Of a DNA stretch of 64,000 nt, positions 2,998 to 14,412 are shown piece by piece. A program made the position numbers and the translations under genes. The notes under the pieces were generated by a model. That model worked only from the letters and a program-made list of their open reading frames with translations, ran no database searches and was not told where the DNA came from. Source of the stretch: Candidatus Desulfarcum epimagneticum (GTDB lineage Bacteria > Desulfobacterota > Desulfobacteria > Desulfobacterales > CR-1); the NCBI GenBank assembly GCA_900659855.1, contig CAACVI010000034.1, forward strand, positions 1-64,000, written 5' to 3'. Positions within the stretch are counted from its first letter, which is position 1. Each line of letters begins with the position of its first letter.

Positions 2998-4278
2998 ATG
3001 AGCGAGGATTATCGTTCCATGTGGTCGGACCTGGGGCTTGATCTTGAATCTCACGACGCCCTTCTGGAAGTTCTGGGGCAAGGCTACCAGGACATTTATT
3101 TATCTCAGAAAAACCGTCCCCAGGGCATGGAATACTTTGACTTCGTCATGAGCGAAGTCCATGGCCTCAGGATCCGGGAGCTTCTGGATGAAAAAAAATC
3201 GGGCCGGAAAATCATCGGGTCCTACTGCGTTTTTGTTCCCGAAGAAATCGTCCTGGCGGCCAACGCCACCCTGGCGGGACTTTGCGCAGGGGCCGATTTC
3301 GCCACCGAGGAAGCGGAAAAGCTCCTGCCGAGAAACACATGCGCCCTGATCAAGTCCGCCTTCGGCTTTAAACTGGGAAACGTCTGCCCCTACCTGGAAA
3401 GCGCGGATATGATTGTGGGGGAAAACACATGCGACGGCAAGAAAAAATCCTATGAGTCTTTTTCCAAACTGGTGAAAAACTTTTATGTGATGGACCTGCC
3501 CCAGGTCAAATCCGGGGAGGGAAGGGCGCTGCTCAAGACCGAATATGAGCGGTTCAAGTCCGCCGTCGAGGCGCTGACGGGGGTCCGGGTCACTCCCGAG
3601 TCGCTTAAGGAGGGCATTCAGACGGTCAACGCCAAACGCGCGGCCCTGGGTCGCCTGGCCTCCCTGAGAAATGCGGACCCGGCGCCCATATCCGGACTGG
3701 ACGCGCTTTTGGCCGCCCAGATATCCTTTTATGACAACCCCCGCCGCTTCACCGAATCCGTGAACAAAATCTGCGATGAACTGGAGAGCCGGATTCAGGA
3801 GAAACAGGGCGTTTTCCCGGTGAAAACCCCCCGCCTGCTGATCTCCGGATGCCCGCAGGCCATTCCCAACTGGAAACTGCCCTTTGTCGTGGAGACATCC
3901 GGCGCGGTGATTGTGGGCGAGGAGTCCTGCGTGGGCGAGCGCGGGTTTAGAAACCTGACAGACGATTCCGGCAAGACAGTGGAGGAGATGATGGAGGCCA
4001 TTGTGGACCGCTATTTCCAGGTGGACTGCGCCATTTTCACCCCCAATCCCCAGCGGCTGGACCATATCCGGGAAATGGCCGCCAAATACAAGGCCGACGG
4101 GGTGATCCACTACGGCTTGCAGTTCTGCCAGCCCTATCTCATGGAATCCATCCCCATTGAAAAAGCCCTGAAGGAAAGCGGACTCCCCTGCCTGACCATT
4201 GAAACCGATTACAGCATGGAGGACGCGGGGCAGCTTCAAACCCGGATCGAGGCTTTCATTGAGCAGATACGCTCATAG
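2998..4278 (+). CDS. 2-hydroxyacyl-CoA dehydratase subunit D / double-cubane cluster protein family (copy 1)
   Basis: A 426-residue member of the HgdB/BadD/YjiM superfamily, which carries [4Fe-4S] or [Fe8S9] double-cubane clusters and reduces demanding substrates at low potential. Conserved cysteines sit at C77, C115, C130, C145 (in TCDGKKK) and C311, with further ones near the C-terminus (FCQPY and PCLTIETDYS). The TETDYS-type ending is typical of the YjiM/double-cubane branch rather than of acyl-CoA dehydratases. The cysteine spacing C115-15-C130-15-C145 is identical in copy 2 (6834-7976). A strong Shine-Dalgarno precedes the ATG. It is the first gene of the operon, and no ATPase activator (HgdC/YjiL type) is seen nearby. 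The substrate is unknown. Confidence 0.8.
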   Translation: MSEDYRSMWSDLGLDLESHDALLEVLGQGYQDIYLSQKNRPQGMEYFDFVMSEVHGLRIRELLDEKKSGRKIIGSYCVFVPEEIVLAANATLAGLCAGADFATEEAEKLLPRNTCALIKSAFGFKLGNVCPYLESADMIVGENTCDGKKKSYESFSKLVKNFYVMDLPQVKSGEGRALLKTEYERFKSAVEALTGVRVTPESLKEGIQTVNAKRAALGRLASLRNADPAPISGLDALLAAQISFYDNPRRFTESVNKICDELESRIQEKQGVFPVKTPRLLISGCPQAIPNWKLPFVVETSGAVIVGEESCVGERGFRNLTDDSGKTVEEMMEAIVDRYFQVDCAIFTPNPQRLDHIREMAAKYKADGVIHYGLQFCQPYLMESIPIEKALKESGLPCLTIETDYSMEDAGQLQTRIEAFIEQIRS

Positions 4279-4335
4279 GGCCGCGAGGGGGATAAAAATG
4301 GCCCTGATACCGGACGCAAAAGGAGGACACGCGCA

Positions 4336-5205
4336 ATGCCGAAGAATAAAAAAGAAGACCTGACCCGACGGGCGTTTCTGGGGACCCTGGCCGGGGCCGC
4401 CGCCATGGGCGCGGCGTCCCCGCCGGCCCGCTCCGCTCCCGGAACGGAATCCACGGAAAACAAAAACCTTCAGGTCTGGTCCTGCGGGGGACTGGCCGAG
4501 GCTTTTGTCCCGGCCAATCAGCGATACACGGAAAAAACCGGCGCCCAAATCGCCTACACCGGCGCCTTTGCCGCGGCTTTGGGAAAATCCCTTTTGGGAA
4601 GCGCCGAGACCGAAGTCTTTGGAGGCCGGGTCCTTAAGCTCGCCAAAAAACTGCGCAAAGAGGGAAAAATGGAATATTTCAAACCCCTTTGCTTCACCCG
4701 GTATGTCATGGTGACGCCCAAAGGAAATCCGGCGAACATCTCAGACATCGCGGACATGGCCCGGCCCGGGACACGGGTGATCCTCGCCCCGGGGGCCTCC
4801 ACCCCGGGGGGAAAGGCCGTGGGCGGTCTTTTGAAAAAAGCCGGGGTCCTGGAAGGGGCCATGAAAAACAGCGTCATCCGGGGGACCTGCGTCCAGCGGA
4901 CCATGGAGGATCTCATCCATGGCAAGGGGGATGTGTCGGTGGTGGAATACCGGCTGACGCGCATGCCCCGTTTCAAGGGAAAATCGGACATCATCCCCAT
5001 CCCGGAGCGTTATTTCCCCAAACCGCCCCTGACCTTCACCATCGGGGTCATGAAAAACGCCGCGGACCGGGCCCTGGCCGATGGGTATGTGGACTTCATT
5101 TTGTCCGAAGAGGGACAGGGTTTTTTTGAATCAGCGGGGTTTGTGCCCGCCATTTCCCGAAAGGGACGGGAAATGACGGAAAGGCTGGGGGTGAAAGATG
5201 TTTGA
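4336..5205 (+). CDS. Tat-exported ModA-like periplasmic substrate-binding protein
   Basis: A 289-residue protein starting with a twin-arginine signal (TRRAFLG, residues about 10-35, followed by an alanine-rich stretch), so it is probably exported folded. The mature part resembles class II periplasmic binding proteins of the molybdate/tungstate (ModA/WtpA) type: a first lobe starting LQVWSCGGL, a hinge motif TPKGNPANISDIADM and a C-terminal segment VDFILSEEGQGFFESAGF. A good AAGGAGG lies 10 bases upstream. There is no ABC permease or ATPase beside it; instead it overlaps a membrane ferredoxin gene by 8 bases. The ligand is unknown. An oxyanion or metal supply for a metallocluster is an inference from the NifB-like neighbour. 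Confidence 0.75.
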   Translation: MPKNKKEDLTRRAFLGTLAGAAAMGAASPPARSAPGTESTENKNLQVWSCGGLAEAFVPANQRYTEKTGAQIAYTGAFAAALGKSLLGSAETEVFGGRVLKLAKKLRKEGKMEYFKPLCFTRYVMVTPKGNPANISDIADMARPGTRVILAPGASTPGGKAVGGLLKKAGVLEGAMKNSVIRGTCVQRTMEDLIHGKGDVSVVEYRLTRMPRFKGKSDIIPIPERYFPKPPLTFTIGVMKNAADRALADGYVDFILSEEGQGFFESAGFVPAISRKGREMTERLGVKDV

Positions 5206-5956
5206 AAGAGCCGAAACCATGGGGCTGAGAGTATGGCGCCGGCTGACCCAGGCCGCCTTTTTGATTTTGATAGGCCAGTGGTCTTTTTACGGCGTGTTCC
5301 GCTGCCCGTTCATTGTGCCCTATGTGAGCTGTCAGAACTGCCCGGTCCTCACCTGCCATGGACGGCTTTTTCACATGTTCTGGGGCTTTTGGATCGCGCT
5401 GCCCCTGTCCCTGCTTGTTTTCGGGAGATGCTTCTGCGGCTGGGCCTGCCCCGGGGGGCTGGCCGTCCAGCTTCTGGGCAAGCCGGCGCCGTTTAAGCTC
5501 CGGGTCAAAAACGCCTTCACCCGCCTGGCCCCCTGGCTGAAATTCGCGGCCACGGCCGGCGCGATGTATGTGTGGCTGATCTGGGGACAGCCCCGGGAAG
5601 CCATCCCCATCCGGACGGGAGGTTTTTTTTCCTCCGTGGCGCTGACCTTTGAGCACGCCGGCCTGCTGTGGCTCATCAGAACCTTTTTCGTCCTGGGCGT
5701 TCTGGCCCTGGGCCTGGTCGCGGCCGGGGCCTGGTGCCGCTTCGCCTGTCCCACGGGCGGGGCGCTGGAGGCGCTGAAGCGTTTTTCTCTTTTCAAGGTT
5801 TACAAAACCCATGAGTGCAATGACTGCGACAAATGCCTGGCCGTATGCGAAATGGGGACCCGCCCGGCGGAGCGGGACTGCGTCAACTGCTGCGACTGCC
5901 TGTCGGTCTGTCCCCAAAACGCCATCAAGACGGGCATTCCGAGGATGAAAAAATGA
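5198..5956 (+). CDS. NapH/CcoG-type polytopic membrane protein with two 4Fe-4S clusters
   Basis: A 252-residue protein with about four to five membrane segments and the CxxxCP motifs typical of NapH/NosR/CcoG quinol or membrane ferredoxin proteins (GRCFCGWACPGG around residue 75 and WCRFACPTGG around residue 180). A C-terminal bacterial ferredoxin domain follows, with two 4Fe-4S motifs (CNDCDKCLAVC and CVNCCDCLSVCP). The family passes electrons between the quinone pool and soluble or periplasmic partners. Its start overlaps the binding-protein gene and its stop overlaps the NifB-like ATG (ATGA), so the three are translated together. It may supply electrons for cluster building or to the double-cubane proteins. 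Confidence 0.85.
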   Translation: MFERAETMGLRVWRRLTQAAFLILIGQWSFYGVFRCPFIVPYVSCQNCPVLTCHGRLFHMFWGFWIALPLSLLVFGRCFCGWACPGGLAVQLLGKPAPFKLRVKNAFTRLAPWLKFAATAGAMYVWLIWGQPREAIPIRTGGFFSSVALTFEHAGLLWLIRTFFVLGVLALGLVAAGAWCRFACPTGGALEALKRFSLFKVYKTHECNDCDKCLAVCEMGTRPAERDCVNCCDCLSVCPQNAIKTGIPRMKK

Positions 5957-6816
5957 AAAAAATCGCCATCAAAAAGACCGAGCGCCGCCACCCCTGTTTT
6001 TTTTCCGAATCCCGGAAGCGTTACGGCCGCATCCATCTTCCAGTGGCGCAAAACTGCAATATCCAGTGCGTGTACTGCCGCCGGGACCATGAATGCCTCC
6101 ATGAAAACCGGCCCGGCGTGTCAAACGGCGTGGTGGGGCCGGAAGAGGCGCTGGATCGGCTGGATCGGGCGCTTGAAAAAATGCCCGAAATCGCTGTGGC
6201 GGGAATCGCCGGACCCGGGGACGCCTTCTGCGATCCCAGGCCCACCCTGCGGACCTTTGAGCTGATTCGCCGCAAATACCCGGGCATGGAGCTGTGCGTC
6301 TCGTCCAACGGCTTGAACGTGAGGGATCACATTCCGGACCTGGCGGATTTAAACGTTGGCTTTGTCACCCTCACCATCAACGCCATTGACCCGGGCGTCG
6401 GCTCCCGGCTGTGCGTTTCCGTCCGGGAAGGGAAGGGAAGGGCGCTTTCGGGAATTCCGGCCGCCCGGGCCCTCATCGCCAGACAGCTTGAAACGGTTTC
6501 GCTGTTAAAGGCCGGGGGGTTCAGGGTCAAGGTCAACACGGTGGTGGTCCCGGGCGTGAACGAAGACCACGCGGTTTTCATCGCCGGAAAAATGGGCGCG
6601 ATGGGGGTGGATTTGATGAATCTTCTGCCCCTCATTCCCGTTCCCGGCACAAAGATGGAGGGCGCGGAGCCCCCGTCCCGAGCCGAAATGCGAAAACTGC
6701 GGCGAATGGCGGGGAAATTTCTCCCCCAGATGCGGCATTGTCAAAGATGCCGGGCCGACGCGGCGGGATGTCTCGACAAGTCCCCGGACACGCCGGCGCC
6801 GCTGAAAACGGATTAA
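5953..6816 (+). CDS. NifB-class radical SAM protein (short form, no NifX-like domain)
   Basis: A 287-residue protein with nearly all hallmarks of NifB, which fuses two [4Fe-4S] clusters and inserts carbide to make the 8Fe core of nitrogenase cofactor. C35-x3-C39-x2-C42 binds the SAM cluster. The K-cluster ligand candidates C15 (in HPCF), C48 (in HECLHENRPGV), C263 and C266 (in HCQRCRADA) are all kept. The GIAGPGDAF and SSNGL strands match NifB. The ATG at 5953 overlaps the upstream stop. The NafY/NifX-type C-terminal domain is absent, as in archaeal NifB. No nifH, D, K, E or N lies in this window; its neighbours are double-cubane proteins. It is not a generic MoaA or PflA. Confidence 0.85.
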   Translation: MKKIAIKKTERRHPCFFSESRKRYGRIHLPVAQNCNIQCVYCRRDHECLHENRPGVSNGVVGPEEALDRLDRALEKMPEIAVAGIAGPGDAFCDPRPTLRTFELIRRKYPGMELCVSSNGLNVRDHIPDLADLNVGFVTLTINAIDPGVGSRLCVSVREGKGRALSGIPAARALIARQLETVSLLKAGGFRVKVNTVVVPGVNEDHAVFIAGKMGAMGVDLMNLLPLIPVPGTKMEGAEPPSRAEMRKLRRMAGKFLPQMRHCQRCRADAAGCLDKSPDTPAPLKTD

Positions 6817-6833
6817 AAGGAAAGGAAAAGAAA

Positions 6834-7976
6834 ATGAGCGCCGATATCATGAAACGCCTGCGACTCGCCTCGGATGAAAACATCACCGAGCTTAAGCGGG
6901 CCAAGTCCCGGGGCCGCGGGGTCGTGGGATTTTACTGTCTGTATTCCCCCACGGAAATGGCCATCGCCGCCAACGCCATTCCCCTTCCCCTTTGCGGAAC
7001 CCGGGAGGACCCCATTGAGGCGGCGGAGAAGATCCTTCCCCGGAACCTGTGCCCCCTGATCAAAAGCAGCTTCGGGTTCGCCGTCACCGACTCCTGCCCG
7101 TTTTTCCGTCTTTCGGACATCATCATCGGCGACACCACATGCGACGGGAAAAAAAAGATGTTCGAGCTTTTGGCCCGGGAAAAGACCCTCCATGTCCTTC
7201 AGCTGCCCCAGACCCCGGACACCGCCATGTCTCTTACTCTCTGGCGGTCCGAGCTGGAGCGTTTTAAAGGCGTCATGGAAGAATACGCCGGCGTCTCCAT
7301 CACCGAAGACAGGCTGCGCCGCGCCATCCGTCTTATGAACCGGGAGCGCGCGGCCCGAAAAGCCGTCATGGACGCGAACCGGATGGACCCCGCCCCCATC
7401 AGCGGCTCCCTTCTTTTGGAGATCCTTTTTAAAACGGGATTTTTCGCGGACAAGGAAAAGGGAATTTCTTTCATGGAAGAAGCGGCCCGCGAGGCCGCCT
7501 CCGGCGCCTTTGAAAGAAAGACGCCGGGCGCCAAAAAACCCAAACGCATTTTGCTCACAGGGGTTCCAGTGGGCATGGGAAGCGACAAGGTGGTGAAAAT
7601 CGTGGAGAAAGGCGGGGCCGACGTGGTGGCCTTTGAAAACTGCTCGGGATACAAACAGGCGTTTCAGGTGGACGAACAGGGCGATCCCATGGACGCCCTG
7701 GCCCGTCAATACCTGGCCACGCCATGCTCGGTGATGAGCCCCAACACGGCGCGTTTCGATCTGCTGGGGAAGATGATCGAAGAATTCCGTGTGGACGGCG
7801 TCATTGATCTGACCTGGCGCGCCTGCCACACCTACAACGTGGAGGCCTTTTCCGTGGAGGCGTTCACCCGAAAAAAGATGGGGGTTCCCTCCCTGCATCT
7901 GGAAACCGATTATTCCCAAAGCGATTTTGGTCAGCTTGAGGCGCGTGTGGATGCTTACCTGGAGATGCTTGGGTAA
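6834..7976 (+). CDS. 2-hydroxyacyl-CoA dehydratase subunit D / double-cubane cluster protein family (copy 2)
   Basis: A 380-residue paralogue of the first operon gene. C73, C88, C103 (TCDGKKK) and C270 have the same spacing as C115, C130, C145 and C311 of copy 1, and the ending LETDYSQSDFGQLEAR matches. It lacks about 45 N-terminal residues found in copy 1. The start was set at 6834 because AAGGAAAGG precedes it; the open frame extends further upstream into the NifB-like gene. Two unequal copies suggest a heterodimer, as in HgdA/HgdB, or separate scaffold and enzyme roles, as in NifE/NifD. The latter is an inference. Confidence 0.8.
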   Translation: MSADIMKRLRLASDENITELKRAKSRGRGVVGFYCLYSPTEMAIAANAIPLPLCGTREDPIEAAEKILPRNLCPLIKSSFGFAVTDSCPFFRLSDIIIGDTTCDGKKKMFELLAREKTLHVLQLPQTPDTAMSLTLWRSELERFKGVMEEYAGVSITEDRLRRAIRLMNRERAARKAVMDANRMDPAPISGSLLLEILFKTGFFADKEKGISFMEEAAREAASGAFERKTPGAKKPKRILLTGVPVGMGSDKVVKIVEKGGADVVAFENCSGYKQAFQVDEQGDPMDALARQYLATPCSVMSPNTARFDLLGKMIEEFRVDGVIDLTWRACHTYNVEAFSVEAFTRKKMGVPSLHLETDYSQSDFGQLEARVDAYLEMLG

Positions 7977-8001
7977 AACGAACGAAAGGAGAAATCAAAA
8001 C

Positions 8002-8616
8002 ATGGCCAAAATACTGGACGCGAATGGGCTCTCCTGCCCGGCCCCGGTTCTGATGACCCGGGACGCCGTTGAGGCGGGGGGATTTGAGGAGCTGGAAGTC
8101 ATGGTGGACAACAACGGGGCAAAGGAGAACGTGTCCCGGTTTTTGGAATCTCAAAACTTTTCCGTCAGCGTCTTTCCAAAAGACGCCGGCTACCGAATCG
8201 TGGCCCGTCCGGGGGAGGATTCGCCCGGGGAAGAGTCCCGAGCCGGCGTCATCGAACCCCTCGTCGTCTGCGGGGAGAGACAAAAAATCATGGTTCTGGC
8301 CTCCACCGACCGCATGGGGTTCGGCGATGACGGGCTGGGGAAAAAATTGATGGTCAGTTTTATCAAAACCATCAAAGAAATGGGGGAGGATCTGTGGCGG
8401 CTGGTTTTTGTCAACAACGGGGTCAAACTGACCGTCGAAGAATCCCCGGTCATCGAAGATCTTCTGGCCTATGAGGAAGAGGGCCTCCATATCCTGGTCT
8501 GCGGAACCTGCCTGGAGCATTTCGGACTTCTGGAAGCCAAAAAGGCGGGGGAGACCACCAACATGCTGGACATCGTGACGGCCATGCAGATAGCCGACAA
8601 GGTGATCAAGATATGA
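8002..8616 (+). CDS. yedF: YedF-type sulfurtransferase-like protein (TusA + DsrE domains)
   Basis: A 204-residue protein with an N-terminal TusA domain (LDANGLSCPAPV, with the persulfide cysteine C12) and a C-terminal DsrE-like domain (DRMGFGDDGLGKKLM, FVNNGVKLT, CGTCLEHFGL). This order defines the YedF family, which is linked to selenium and sulfur trafficking. The ATG at 8002 follows GAAAGGAG. As the last gene of the operon, it could carry persulfide (or selenide) sulfur for the cluster made with the NifB-like protein. That role is inferred from position. Confidence 0.85.
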   Translation: MAKILDANGLSCPAPVLMTRDAVEAGGFEELEVMVDNNGAKENVSRFLESQNFSVSVFPKDAGYRIVARPGEDSPGEESRAGVIEPLVVCGERQKIMVLASTDRMGFGDDGLGKKLMVSFIKTIKEMGEDLWRLVFVNNGVKLTVEESPVIEDLLAYEEEGLHILVCGTCLEHFGLLEAKKAGETTNMLDIVTAMQIADKVIKI

Positions 8617-8660
8617 CGCGGCTCGTAAAAAAATCGATCAACCGCGTCACGTGGGTTTTT
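8614..8660 (+). terminator. probable Rho-independent terminator of the double-cubane operon
   Basis: TGACGCGG at 8614-8621 pairs with CCGCGTCA at 8642-8649 across a 20-base loop, followed after 5 bases by TTTTTT (8655-8660). The stem begins at the YedF stop codon. The position between convergent genes fits a terminator, although the loop is long. Confidence 0.55.
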
Positions 8661-8667
8661 TATTCAT

Positions 8668-11382: not shown

Positions 11383-11429
11383 ATGATCCAATTCGATATT
11401 AAATTATTTTAACTGTGAAAAGGTATAAA

Positions 11430-12893
11430 ATGAAAAACAAAAAAGGTCTGCCGGGGGGGCGGTACAAGCCGCTTTTGAAGCAGGATATTGAAAAAATTCA
11501 TCAAAAAACTTTAGAAGTCTTTTCTGAGATCGGTATCCGGGTCAATGCGCCGGCGGCTTTCGAATTGTTTCAAGAGGCCGGCGCCACGGGTGATAAAAGC
11601 AGTCACATCATCAAAATACCGCCCGAGCTTGTCGAAAAAATAATGGGGACAGCCCCTTCAGAAGTGATTCTCTACGGCCGGGAAGAGCATGGCGCCGCGG
11701 ATTTAAGGCTTTGCGGCGCAAATGTTCATATGGGAACCGGCGGCACCGCATTGAATGTGCAGGATCCCGGGGCTTCCGACATTCGTCCGTCCGAGCTTAA
11801 GGATATTGTCGATATGGCCAGGGTTGTGGATCAATTGGATCAGATTCATTTCTATATGCTCAATGTATATCCGAATGAACTGGAAATGGATGAAGTCGAT
11901 GTGAATCGATTCGGCGCGGCCCTGAATTACACGCAAAAGCATGTCATGGGCGGTGTGTATACGGCGGAAGGCGTTGAGAATGTCATCAAAATGGCAAGGC
12001 TCATCGCCGGCTCCGACAAGGCTTTGAAAGAAAAGCCTTTCATTTCTATGGTCACTTGTGTCATCAGTCCGTTTGTCATTGACGAAAATTACGGACGACT
12101 CACTATGAATGTGGCTGAAAACGGCATTCCCCTGGTGGTTCCGGCCGAACCCCTTTGCGGCGCCACGGCGCCTGTCACTTTGGCGGGCAACCTGCTGGTT
12201 CTCAACGTGGACACACTGGCGGGCGTCATGCTTGCGCAGCTGACCAACCCCGGGACACCTGTGTTATATGGGTGTGTCTCTTCGGTGACCGATTTACGGG
12301 ACATGAAATACCTGGCCGGCGCTGTGGAAATGGGATTGCTGAACGCTTCGGCCGCCCAGCTGGCTCAATTCTATAACATCCCCATTTACGCGACCGCGGG
12401 CATGTCGGACGCCAAAACAAATGACGCCCAGGCCGGCTATGAATCGGCCATCAGCAGTCTGCTGACCGCGCTGGCCGGTGGCAATTTTATTCATGACGCC
12501 GCGGGATTTATCGAATTTTGCATGACGGCTTCTTATGACAAATTGATTATTGACAATGAAATTATCGGCATGGTGATGCGGGCGGTGGAAGGGATACGGG
12601 TGGATGATGAAACCCTTGCCTTTGACCTGATGAAAAAAATCGGCCCGGGCGGTCATTTTGTGTCAGAGCGGCACACACGACGATTGATGCGGTCCGAACA
12701 TTACGCGCCGAGGCTCAGTGATCGGAATCATCGGGATAAATGGCGGGAAAACGGCGCCCGGGACGCGGGGCAAAGAGCCGCGCAAAAGGCCGCCGCTTTT
12801 TTGCGGGCCCCCAAAAAACCATACCTGCCGGAGGAAGTAAGGGCGGAAATACTGAGGGCCATTCCCGGAATACGCCCGATGGTGATGTCCTGA
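11430..12893 (+). CDS. MttB-family corrinoid methyltransferase (copy 1, long form)
   Basis: About 487 residues of the trimethylamine methyltransferase (MttB) superfamily, whose non-pyrrolysine members demethylate quaternary amines such as glycine betaine onto a corrinoid protein. Recognisable blocks are GTGGTALNVQDP, KPFISMVTCVISPF, a mid-barrel TNPGTPVLYGCVSS and ATAGMSDAKTNDAQAGYESA. The frame has no internal TAG, so it does not use pyrrolysine. The ATG at 11430 has AAAGG six bases upstream; a GTG 15 bases earlier is in frame but less likely. It lies 13 bases before the pterin methyltransferase, so it probably donates methyl groups into that pathway. The substrate is unknown. Confidence 0.85.
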   Translation: MKNKKGLPGGRYKPLLKQDIEKIHQKTLEVFSEIGIRVNAPAAFELFQEAGATGDKSSHIIKIPPELVEKIMGTAPSEVILYGREEHGAADLRLCGANVHMGTGGTALNVQDPGASDIRPSELKDIVDMARVVDQLDQIHFYMLNVYPNELEMDEVDVNRFGAALNYTQKHVMGGVYTAEGVENVIKMARLIAGSDKALKEKPFISMVTCVISPFVIDENYGRLTMNVAENGIPLVVPAEPLCGATAPVTLAGNLLVLNVDTLAGVMLAQLTNPGTPVLYGCVSSVTDLRDMKYLAGAVEMGLLNASAAQLAQFYNIPIYATAGMSDAKTNDAQAGYESAISSLLTALAGGNFIHDAAGFIEFCMTASYDKLIIDNEIIGMVMRAVEGIRVDDETLAFDLMKKIGPGGHFVSERHTRRLMRSEHYAPRLSDRNHRDKWRENGARDAGQRAAQKAAAFLRAPKKPYLPEEVRAEILRAIPGIRPMVMS

Positions 12894-12906: not shown

Positions 12907-13716
12907 ATGCTGCTTATCGGTGAAAAAATTAACGGCTCAATTCCAAAAACCCGAGATATTATTTTGCGGCGGGACACAGGCGCCCTGGTTGAGCTGGCGA
13001 AAACCCAGGCGCGGGCCGGGGCGGATTACGTGGATGTCAATGTCGCCACCGGCGCCGGGAGCCTGTCCGATGAAAGCGCCGCCATGTCGTGGGCGGTCGA
13101 CGCGCTGCGCCGGGAAACAGATTTCGGTCTTTGTATCGACAGCTCTGATCCGGATGTGATGAGAGCGGGGCTTGAAAAAACAGATCACAGGCCCGTGATG
13201 ATCAATTCCGTGAATGCGGAAACCGACCGGTTGAGAAATATCATCCCCCTGGCCGTCCAATACCGCGCGACGCTCATCGCTTTGCTGATGGACGACGACG
13301 GAATCCCCAAAAACCCGGACGGGAGAATCCGTTCGCTGGATCATATATTGACGGCCTGCGGCAACGCCGGCCTGGAGACGGAAAAGCTGTATATTGACCC
13401 CCTGGCGATTCCGATCAGCACGGATCAAAGACAGGCCGCGGTCACCCTTGACACCATAAAGCTCATCAAAAAACGGTATCCCGATCTCAAGATGGTTCTC
13501 GGGCTTTCCAATATTTCTTTCGGCCTTCCCGGCCGCGCGCGGATCAACGCGTCTTTTTTAACCATGGCCATCTGTCATGGGGTGGAAGCCGCCATTCTGG
13601 ACACACTGGAGCCGGAATTGATGAGCGCGATAAGAACCGCGGAAGCCATTATGGGAAAGGACAGACATTTTAGACGGTATGCCCGCTCTTTCCGCAACAA
13701 AAACAAATCAAAGTAA
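12907..13716 (+). CDS. methyltetrahydrofolate:corrinoid methyltransferase (MtgA/AcsE/DHPS-like)
   Basis: A 269-residue TIM barrel of the pterin-binding family. It shows LLIGEKINGS at the N-terminus, GADYVDVNVATGAG, CIDSSDPDVMRAGL, MINSVNAE and KMVLGLSNISFGLP, the usual pattern in MtgA, AcsE and MtvA. It moves a methyl group between a methyl-corrinoid protein and tetrahydrofolate. Downstream of an MttB gene and directly ahead of the corrinoid protein, it would feed methyl groups to the folate (Wood-Ljungdahl) pool. Confidence 0.88.
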   Translation: MLLIGEKINGSIPKTRDIILRRDTGALVELAKTQARAGADYVDVNVATGAGSLSDESAAMSWAVDALRRETDFGLCIDSSDPDVMRAGLEKTDHRPVMINSVNAETDRLRNIIPLAVQYRATLIALLMDDDGIPKNPDGRIRSLDHILTACGNAGLETEKLYIDPLAIPISTDQRQAAVTLDTIKLIKKRYPDLKMVLGLSNISFGLPGRARINASFLTMAICHGVEAAILDTLEPELMSAIRTAEAIMGKDRHFRRYARSFRNKNKSK

Positions 13717-13728
13717 AAGGACAACCCA

Positions 13729-14412
13729 ATGGAACAGCAAGCCGATATATTGAAACATATCTTGTCCAACGTGATTCAGGGACGCGTAAGCCAGGAGGAT
13801 GAAGGGGTGGATGAAGGGCTCGTGGGGCAGCCCGCTGTGACAGAGCGCATACGGCATGCCGTGGAACTCGGCATTCCTCCCCGGGAAATTATAATAAAAG
13901 CCTTGTCTCCCGCAATGGAGCGGGTGGGGGAAAATTTCGAAAACGGCGAGTATCTGATTCCGGATATGCTGGCCGCCGCGGAATGCGTGGAAAAAGCGAT
14001 GGATATTCTGAAACCGCATCTTTCTCCCGCGGATATAAAGGAAAAAGGGAAATTTGTCCTTGCCACGGTCCAGGGCGATCTGCACGATATCGGAAAAAAC
14101 ATCGCGGGTCTGATGATCAAAAGCGAAGGGTATCAGGTGATCGATCTGGGACATGATGTGGTGAGCGATGCCATCATTCAAAAAATTAAGGAGACCGGCG
14201 CCGCCTTTGTGGGTTTGTCGGCCCTTCTGACCACCACCATGCGGGCCATGGCCGAAGTGGTTGAAAAAATCAGCGACGCCGGCATCCGGGACCAGGTGAC
14301 GATTTTTATTGGCGGCGCGCCGACATCGCAGGAGTTTGCGGACCAAATCGGGGCGGATGTCTATTGCCGGGACGCTTTTCATGCGATTCAAAAATTAAGG
14401 GAATTCGAATAA
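13729..14412 (+). CDS. corrinoid (B12-binding) methyl-carrier protein
   Basis: A 227-residue protein of the MtbC/MttC/MtgC family: an N-terminal four-helix B12-binding cap (about 1-110, with FENGEYLIPDMLAAAECVEKA) and a Rossmann domain with the DLHDIGKN motif, whose histidine is the lower cobalt ligand (DxHxxG). The segments GLSALLTTTMRAM and IFIGGAP complete the fold. It should shuttle methyl groups between the MttB homologues and the pterin methyltransferase just upstream. An N-terminal insertion (QEDEGVDEGLVGQ) is slightly unusual. Confidence 0.92.
   Translation: MEQQADILKHILSNVIQGRVSQEDEGVDEGLVGQPAVTERIRHAVELGIPPREIIIKALSPAMERVGENFENGEYLIPDMLAAAECVEKAMDILKPHLSPADIKEKGKFVLATVQGDLHDIGKNIAGLMIKSEGYQVIDLGHDVVSDAIIQKIKETGAAFVGLSALLTTTMRAMAEVVEKISDAGIRDQVTIFIGGAPTSQEFADQIGADVYCRDAFHAIQKLREFE

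Follow-up and report, generated by a model that had tools for sequence, protein, structure and literature searches.

A conserved module of a Tat-signal binding protein, a NapH-like membrane protein and NifB suggests an undescribed use of nitrogenase-type clusters

NifB is usually treated as a nitrogenase gene. Here we analyse a stretch of 64,000 nucleotides from Candidatus Desulfarcum epimagneticum (assembly GCA_900659855.1, contig CAACVI010000034.1, positions 1 to 64,000; ‘the window’), in which a short NifB gene follows genes for a substrate-binding protein (SBP) with a twin-arginine translocation (Tat) signal and for a membrane protein resembling NapH. By sequence comparison SBP-NapH-NifB is a conserved module and probably the functional core of the locus. 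The best explanation, to which we give a probability of about one half, is that the SBP carries a cluster made by NifB, is exported folded and is fed electrons by the NapH-like protein. The coupling of NifB to a membrane electron carrier and an SBP bearing an export signal points to a use of nitrogenase-type clusters that has not been described. Literature searches, whose coverage left most subscription journals outside, found no description of SBP-NapH-NifB, and beyond the activation of methyl-coenzyme M reductase (MCR) in methanogens we found no use assigned to the NifB product outside the nitrogenase family.

In the proposed mechanism NifB, judging from the conservation of its ligands, would join two [4Fe-4S] clusters and insert a carbide derived from S-adenosylmethionine, giving the [Fe8S9C] core (the L-cluster, or NifB-co). 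The core would be handed to the SBP in the cytoplasm and bound there through three invariant cysteines; the folded holo-SBP would then leave by the Tat pathway, and the four-helix NapH-like protein would carry electrons across the membrane to it. The result would be a periplasmic low-potential redox enzyme. Genomes with nitrogenase could supply the core from their nif NifB and dispense with the module's own copy. The full statement, that several phyla have a periplasmic enzyme combining a nitrogenase-type [Fe8S9C] cluster, a dedicated NifB, three cysteines in a binding-protein cleft, Tat export and a transmembrane wire, is held more tentatively, with the odds somewhat against it. If true, L-type clusters would have one more protein family, unrelated to those known, and for the first time one located beyond the cytoplasm. 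Should the SBP hold the cluster, such clusters could be studied in a small soluble protein, and nifB by itself would be no indicator of nitrogen fixation.

Distribution of the module and its association with NifB

The genome of the window (G000; loci and genomes are numbered L and G) measures 3.26 Mb in 52 contigs and is 99.7% complete. It has one NifB and no match to PF00148, the family of NifDKEN; NifH lay outside the search. The view of a preliminary description of this DNA, that the NifB serves something other than nitrogenase, is supported by a genome without nitrogenase-family subunits and by a gene context that points the same way.

An SBP alignment of 10 rows was searched against a collection of 84,980 genomes, and the 88 stretches that matched a pattern gave 76 loci. 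These are spread over Thermodesulfobacteriota, Bacillota (Negativicutes), Campylobacterota, Planctomycetota, Acidobacteriota, Fibrobacterota and other phyla, with Sporomusa and Megasphaera (both Negativicutes) and Campylobacter concisus among the named hosts. NifB adjoins SBP in 47 of the 76 loci, 39 of them in the order SBP-NapH-NifB (order A; a few are cut by contig ends and one NifB is truncated) and 8 in the order NifB-SBP-NapH (order B). In Sporomusa silvacetica (L100:9627-9884) the module NifB breaks off at about residue 86; SBP and NapH are intact there, and the genome has three longer NifBs at other places. Sporomusa ovata DSM 2662 likewise has additional NifBs besides the module.

Searches that started from NifB found relatives of the window protein up to 58% identical. 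Nine of the 20 NifB regions read have SBP and NapH beside NifB (seven in order A, two in order B); the 11 without them include eight short NifBs about 40-44% identical and one 49% identical. None of 29 other NifB loci from the same taxonomic order has these genes within flanks of at most 1.5 kb, and two further NifBs from that search, in G047 and G081, have them alongside in gene order B. Spread of the module by plasmids was considered and rejected: neither SBP nor NapH has a match at E<=1e-10 in a plasmid collection.

Genomic evidence strongly supports a dependence of SBP-NapH on NifB, because NifB accompanies SBP in genomes, adjacent or elsewhere. Across 395 genomes drawn evenly from the phylum, SBP (E<=1e-50) was found in 15 and NifB (E<=1e-60) in 95. 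NifB at that threshold is present in 13 of the 15 SBP genomes versus 82 of the 380 others, with a p of 3e-7 that rests on the strict threshold, the 380 having been assessed at E<=1e-60 only. The remaining two SBP genomes (G275 and G429) carry NifB-SBP-NapH with a NifB 35-36% identical, so that all 15 have NifB. In the Negativicutes, the class of G556, SBP was found in 22 of 380 genomes; NifB was present in the 10 of these that belong to the set of 50 described next, and the other 12 all carry SBP-NapH-NifB (8 loci are new and 4 are L103, L107, L120 and L122).

Fifty of the 76 locus genomes were examined as a whole, with NifB found in 46 and PF00148 proteins in 36. NifB had not been seen beside SBP in 25 of the 50, and 21 of these have it elsewhere; at L073, L092, L095 and L108 a long NifB lies 5-6 kb away on the other strand. 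In 15 of the 25, SBP-NapH is flanked by 1 kb or more of sequence on either side, and each of these genomes has NifB together with PF00148 proteins, whereas 10 of the 25 genomes with an adjacent NifB (one truncated) have no PF00148 protein. The difference has a p of 0.0009 to 0.004, varying with two genomes of weak PF00148 matches. Adjacency changed five times on the SBP tree, at least four times on supported branches. Anaeroglobus geminatus (G559, L129) and Megasphaera micronuciformis (G561, L131) each have three weaker PF00148 matches (best E about 1e-31), possibly to another Nif-like protein, and in both the only NifB match is the module NifB.

The three proteins of the module

The short NifB of the window (positions 5953-6816, + strand, 287 aa) consists of the radical SAM domain only. 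It matches TIGR01290 with 268.9 bits (E 6.7e-80), missing the curated cut-off of 343.65, and the match stops before the NifX-like part of the profile; the module NifBs of two C. concisus strains score 351.5 and 351.3 bits. A profile of 10 module NifBs matches the NifB structure 6y1x with E 6e-105. The seven cysteines listed in the preliminary description (C15, C35, C39, C42, C48, C263 and C266) are all present; the list passed over C115, which corresponds to a K1 ligand of the Methanosarcina acetivorans (Ma) enzyme. By comparison with that enzyme, as given in the accessible parts of PMC6053413 and PMC7145814, the window NifB has the radical SAM CX3CX2C motif (C35/C39/C42) and the K1/K2 ligand set (Ma C30, C63, C129 and H43; C274 and C277). 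The counterpart of H28 is Ma H43, the K1 histidine that the accessible part of PMC7145814 gives as required for L-cluster formation.

For conservation, 143 NifB hits were reduced to 138 cores and 113 unique ones (38 SBP-linked of order A, 8 of order B, 56 long and 11 other short). C15, H28, C35, C39, C42, C115, C263 and C266 are kept in 113 of 113, C15 and C266 having been fixed beforehand, with R267 and D269, by the extraction pattern. C48 is kept in all 38 NifBs of group A and in all long ones and is missing in clade B. The third K2 cysteine (Ma C264) is A253 in the window; we rejected its absence as a mark of altered chemistry, since the position is not cysteine in 47 of the 56 long NifBs either, nor in the aligned solved NifBs. 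The SBP-linked NifBs form two groups with different gene orders, A (38) and B (8). On the NifB tree, a branch with support 99 separates B from the rest, and A is compatible with a single origin, without branch support.

Short NifB lacking the NifX domain is active, according to the part of PMC5715403 available to us; because of this and of the conserved ligands, the window NifB likely makes the normal L-cluster product. A different idea, that the module NifB makes something else, such as a carbide-free 8Fe cluster, or modifies a cysteine or peptide of SBP by radical SAM chemistry, draws on clade B without C48 and on genomes where NifB and SBP share one reading frame. We consider it rather improbable: the L-cluster ligands, including the equivalent of H28, are retained, and it is common for an SBP-NapH genome to have only a distant NifB, in most cases a long one of the nif type, so that the ordinary NifB product seems sufficient. 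Among other NifBs of the set, L047 (G497) is a short one (304 aa) adjoining four mutually similar genes of 452-538 aa; it stands near the long NifBs on the tree, and its locus probably represents a nif cluster whose NifB is short. L138, L145 and L164 have NifB and a PF00148 domain in a single frame of about 900-1000 aa, resembling a NifN-NifB fusion; the genomes with such fusions are G551 (Megasphaera cerevisiae), G545 (Deltaproteobacteria bacterium) and G546 (Desulfovibrio sp.).

The SBP (positions 4336-5205, + strand, 289 aa) is a ModA/PEB3-like protein with twin arginines at R11-R12 and three cysteines only, C50, C119 and C185. It matches SBP_bac_11 (E 5e-44); against TIGR01256 (ModA) it reaches 35.8 bits, short of the cut-off of 62.5. 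Its AlphaFold model (m3696cca666f4; mean predicted local distance difference test score 80) has the fold of a ModA-type protein, and Foldseek returned 4kd5 (E 1.3e-15), PEB3 (3fj7, E 4.8e-15) and AcfC (4jb7, E 2.5e-13). Unlike ModA, PEB3 and AcfC, the module SBP combines this fold with a Tat signal and three near-invariant cysteines and has no constant permease partner. Conservation was read from 102 hits, of which 89 were complete and 76 unique. The twin arginines and C50 are each found in 75 of the 76 (one gap each), and C119 and C185 in all 76; by a rough signal cut the mature part has three cysteines in 28 and four in 40.

C50 immediately precedes a predicted helix (residues 51-68) and C185 another (186-194), in agreement with profile alignments. 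ModA holds its ligands at helix starts of this kind; its hydroxyl ligands seem to be missing from the SBP. The use of Tat by a normally Sec-type protein would fit insertion of a cofactor before export. NifX and NifE bind NifB-co by one or two Cys or His, according to the accessible part of PMC13128457, and three SBP cysteines would therefore suffice. SBP paralogues of the window genome were tried as a control for the Tat signal and cysteines and set aside as uninformative; they look like a ThiB-like protein and a MoeA-type fusion.

The NapH-like protein (positions 5198-5956, + strand, 252 aa, four predicted helices) matches TIGR02163 with 47.3 bits (E 1.9e-12), below the cut-off of 213.05. Of its 18 cysteines, 16 are kept without exception in the 73 unique copies. 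Two CX3CP pairs account for four of them and the C-terminal ferredoxin part for eight; the other four, C36, C45, C48 and C53, are found in the first loop or next to it, and hydropathy and loop charges place this loop outside if positive loops are inside. The likeness to the NapH/MauN family extends to the helices, whereas the outer four-cysteine set is extra, and we know of no such set in Escherichia coli NapH. The layout allows a putative chain of clusters through the membrane. An apparent NapH-NifB fusion at L081 and L086 was rejected, the long frame resulting from a false extension upstream, in a different frame from NapH.

The same features could be read as service or uptake: NapH would feed electrons to the radical SAM enzyme, SBP would sense or bring a metal or oxyanion, and the NifB product would go to another cytoplasmic acceptor, in the window perhaps a double-cubane-cluster protein (DCCP). 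The C-terminal ferredoxin part of the NapH-like protein is predicted to lie inside, molybdate- and iron-binding proteins share the fold of the SBP, and neighbour families, counted over 82 clustered loci (three present twice, the window included), include an ABC-ATPase family in 18, with transporter genes close to SBP in a few. Those near SBP are of the nitrate/taurine type at L090, L098 and L122 and of the phosphate type at L048, L094 and L123, so that nearby transporters differ in type; in several loci the ABC genes lie kilobases from the module, annotated permease families occur in at most 5 of the 82, and the window operon has no permease or ATPase partner. A Tat signal and three invariant cysteines would be odd in a plain transporter protein, and SBP at E<=1e-50 is absent from 82 of the 95 NifB genomes of the 395-genome draw, so NifB does not as a rule depend on SBP. 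On balance we find service or uptake unlikely.

Several points weigh against the explanation in which the SBP carries the cluster. The genomic samples share members, since loci among the 76 come from 10 of the 15 SBP genomes in the 395-genome draw, and the 22 of 22 in Negativicutes stands without a NifB base rate for that sample. The comparison of adjacency with nif genes treats related genomes as independent, ignoring kinship; a tree test on independent pairs, with 5 of 40 rows outside the tree (L071, L079, L116, L126 and L130), gave three pairs and p 1 and had no power. No NifB was found in 4 of the 50 SBP genomes (G542, G544, G547 and G548); in the NifB-less genomes (L069, L070, L115 and L119) SBP or SBP-NapH lies no more than about 300 bases from the end of a contig. 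C50 was part of one of the two SBP search patterns, which C119, C185 and the twin arginines were not. That the three SBP cysteines converge in space is an assumption of this explanation. The ABC genes near SBP in some loci fit a transport role, and clade B lacks C48 of NifB. Finally, NifB and SBP form one open frame in three genomes, L096 and L105 (Planctomycetota) and L133 (Fibrobacterota), with the twin-arginine motif in between; an internal Tat motif does not fit simple export, and the SBP start may lie inside the frame, or the fusion may remain in the cytoplasm.

Many module hosts are anaerobes, and with a tree-controlled test that had no power the association might come from a common anaerobic way of life or from a mobile island, the genes being functionally uncoupled. 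We give this very little credence. Against it stand a fixed gene order with start-stop overlaps in the window, the two NifB groups and the three shared frames; all 15 and all 22 SBP genomes of the two samples, which overlap the 76 loci, have NifB; and no plasmid match was found.

Double-cubane proteins, neighbouring genes and related systems

The preliminary description had placed a NifB-made 8Fe core in two DCCPs of the HgdB/YjiM family. Its gene content is confirmed as far as it went: reading frames and profile matches put the short NifB in an operon with DCCP1 (positions 2998-4278, + strand, 426 aa) and DCCP2 (6834-7976, + strand, 380 aa). It passed over SBP and the NapH-like gene, which lie between DCCP1 and NifB. 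Both DCCPs exceed the cut-off of 350 for NF040772 (468.7 and 476.5 bits), both match the double-cubane structure 7yyl (E 5.6e-134 and 1.1e-66) and, as members of the family of 6eno and 7yyl, both share six cysteines in alignment with the solved protein, which we take to be its cluster ligands. No ATPase activator gene adjoins them; the genome's two BcrAD_BadFG genes are both on other contigs.

DCCPs flank the module in the window, and SBP genomes have a DCCP more often than the others do (13 of 15 versus 118 of 380). A DCCP occurs in 55 of 95 NifB genomes versus 76 of 300 without, and NifB in 55 of 131 DCCP genomes versus 40 of 264. DCCP without NifB is nonetheless common: NifB at E<=1e-60 is absent from 76 of the 131 DCCP genomes (at most, as weaker NifBs are missed), and an E. 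coli control genome has matches for DCCP and none for NifB. Within flanks of up to 8 kb, many of them cut by contig ends, a DCCP lies near the module in 7 of the 76 loci (L069, L077, L080, L087, L094, L135 and L136); of another 12 loci, one (L181) has a DCCP there too. DCCP1 copies 59-64% identical lie near the module at L043 (= L087) and L049 (= L135). The double-cubane [Fe8S9] cluster is not known to contain a carbide. DCCP is thus not a constant partner of the module NifB, and by these comparisons delivery of the NifB product to the DCCPs appears decidedly unlikely. A pair of DCCPs around the module was seen in this window only. Uniqueness to one strain, which had been named as counting against the idea, does apply to the six-gene order among the loci read, while the three-gene core is widespread.

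No single neighbour is constant across the 82 loci. After the ABC-ATPase family come TusA/YedF-like (15), YedE (11), molybdopterin-oxidoreductase-type (10) and DCCP genes (8), then HdrA2-like, SelD and selenocysteine-lyase-like genes (6 each) and a BadF-type activator (5). In the Solidesulfovibrio loci a second SBP-type gene, on the opposite strand, served as the anchor of the clustering, and distances there are not those of the module. YedF, YedE, a selenocysteine lyase, a 2-hydroxyglutaryl-CoA-dehydratase-type gene and an activase have been tied to selenium genes before, in the accessible part of PMC5322559. A selenium or formate/low-potential setting is possible, and the window's DCCP and YedF genes are an occasional addition, probably linked to selenium or low-potential redox.

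Two known systems use such clusters beyond nitrogen fixation. Methylthio-alkane reductase is built of Nif-family subunits (PF00148). Its subunits were not found in the window genome; it uses nitrogenase metalloclusters for another reduction, according to the accessible part of PMC12552129. The archaeal MCR activation complex (McrC, Mmp7) has L-type clusters outside the Nif family and is the only such precedent we found; NifB is their probable maker and occurs in methanogens without nitrogenase (PMC12176620, accessible part). It differs from the module in being archaeal, in its other acceptors and in that this part of the source names no Tat-signal SBP or NapH-like partner. The nitrogenase pathway itself, from NifB to NifEN and NifDK, shares with the window an enzyme class with an identical ligand set, whereas here the genome has no PF00148 protein and the partners are a Tat-signal protein of SBP fold and a membrane iron-sulfur protein.

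The window operon and other genes

Six + strand genes form an operon-like run: DCCP1, SBP, NapH-like, NifB, DCCP2 and YedF (positions 8002-8616, 204 aa), a TusA-DsrE protein associated with selenium metabolism (TIGR03527, 202 bits; cut-off 110). SBP and NapH overlap by 8 bases and NapH and NifB by 4. The gaps measure 57 (DCCP1-SBP), 17 (NifB-DCCP2) and 25 bases (DCCP2-YedF) and contain purine runs that, by eye, resemble ribosome sites. A possible intrinsic terminator at positions 8642-8664 (+ strand) would end the operon. This call from a pattern scan is weak, because the region has 14 terminator-like sites, close to the 10.0 +/- 3.5 in shuffled sequences. A promoter scan found 2 sites against 2.4 expected.

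Upstream, positions 413-2587 encode a 724-aa protein with a C-terminal exonuclease domain (PF00929, residues 535-691), whose front part looks sensor-kinase-like by eye only, and a CheY-like receiver (positions 42-416) adjoins it. Downstream, an Rfam PYLIS_3 match (positions 12402-12501, 60.7 bits) lies inside an MTTB-family gene (positions 11415-12893, 492 aa), whose frame is uninterrupted and has no amber codon despite the PYLIS_3 and family matches. Genes for pterin-binding and B12-binding proteins (positions 12907-14412) adjoin it and form with it a cluster of the one-carbon methyltransferase type.

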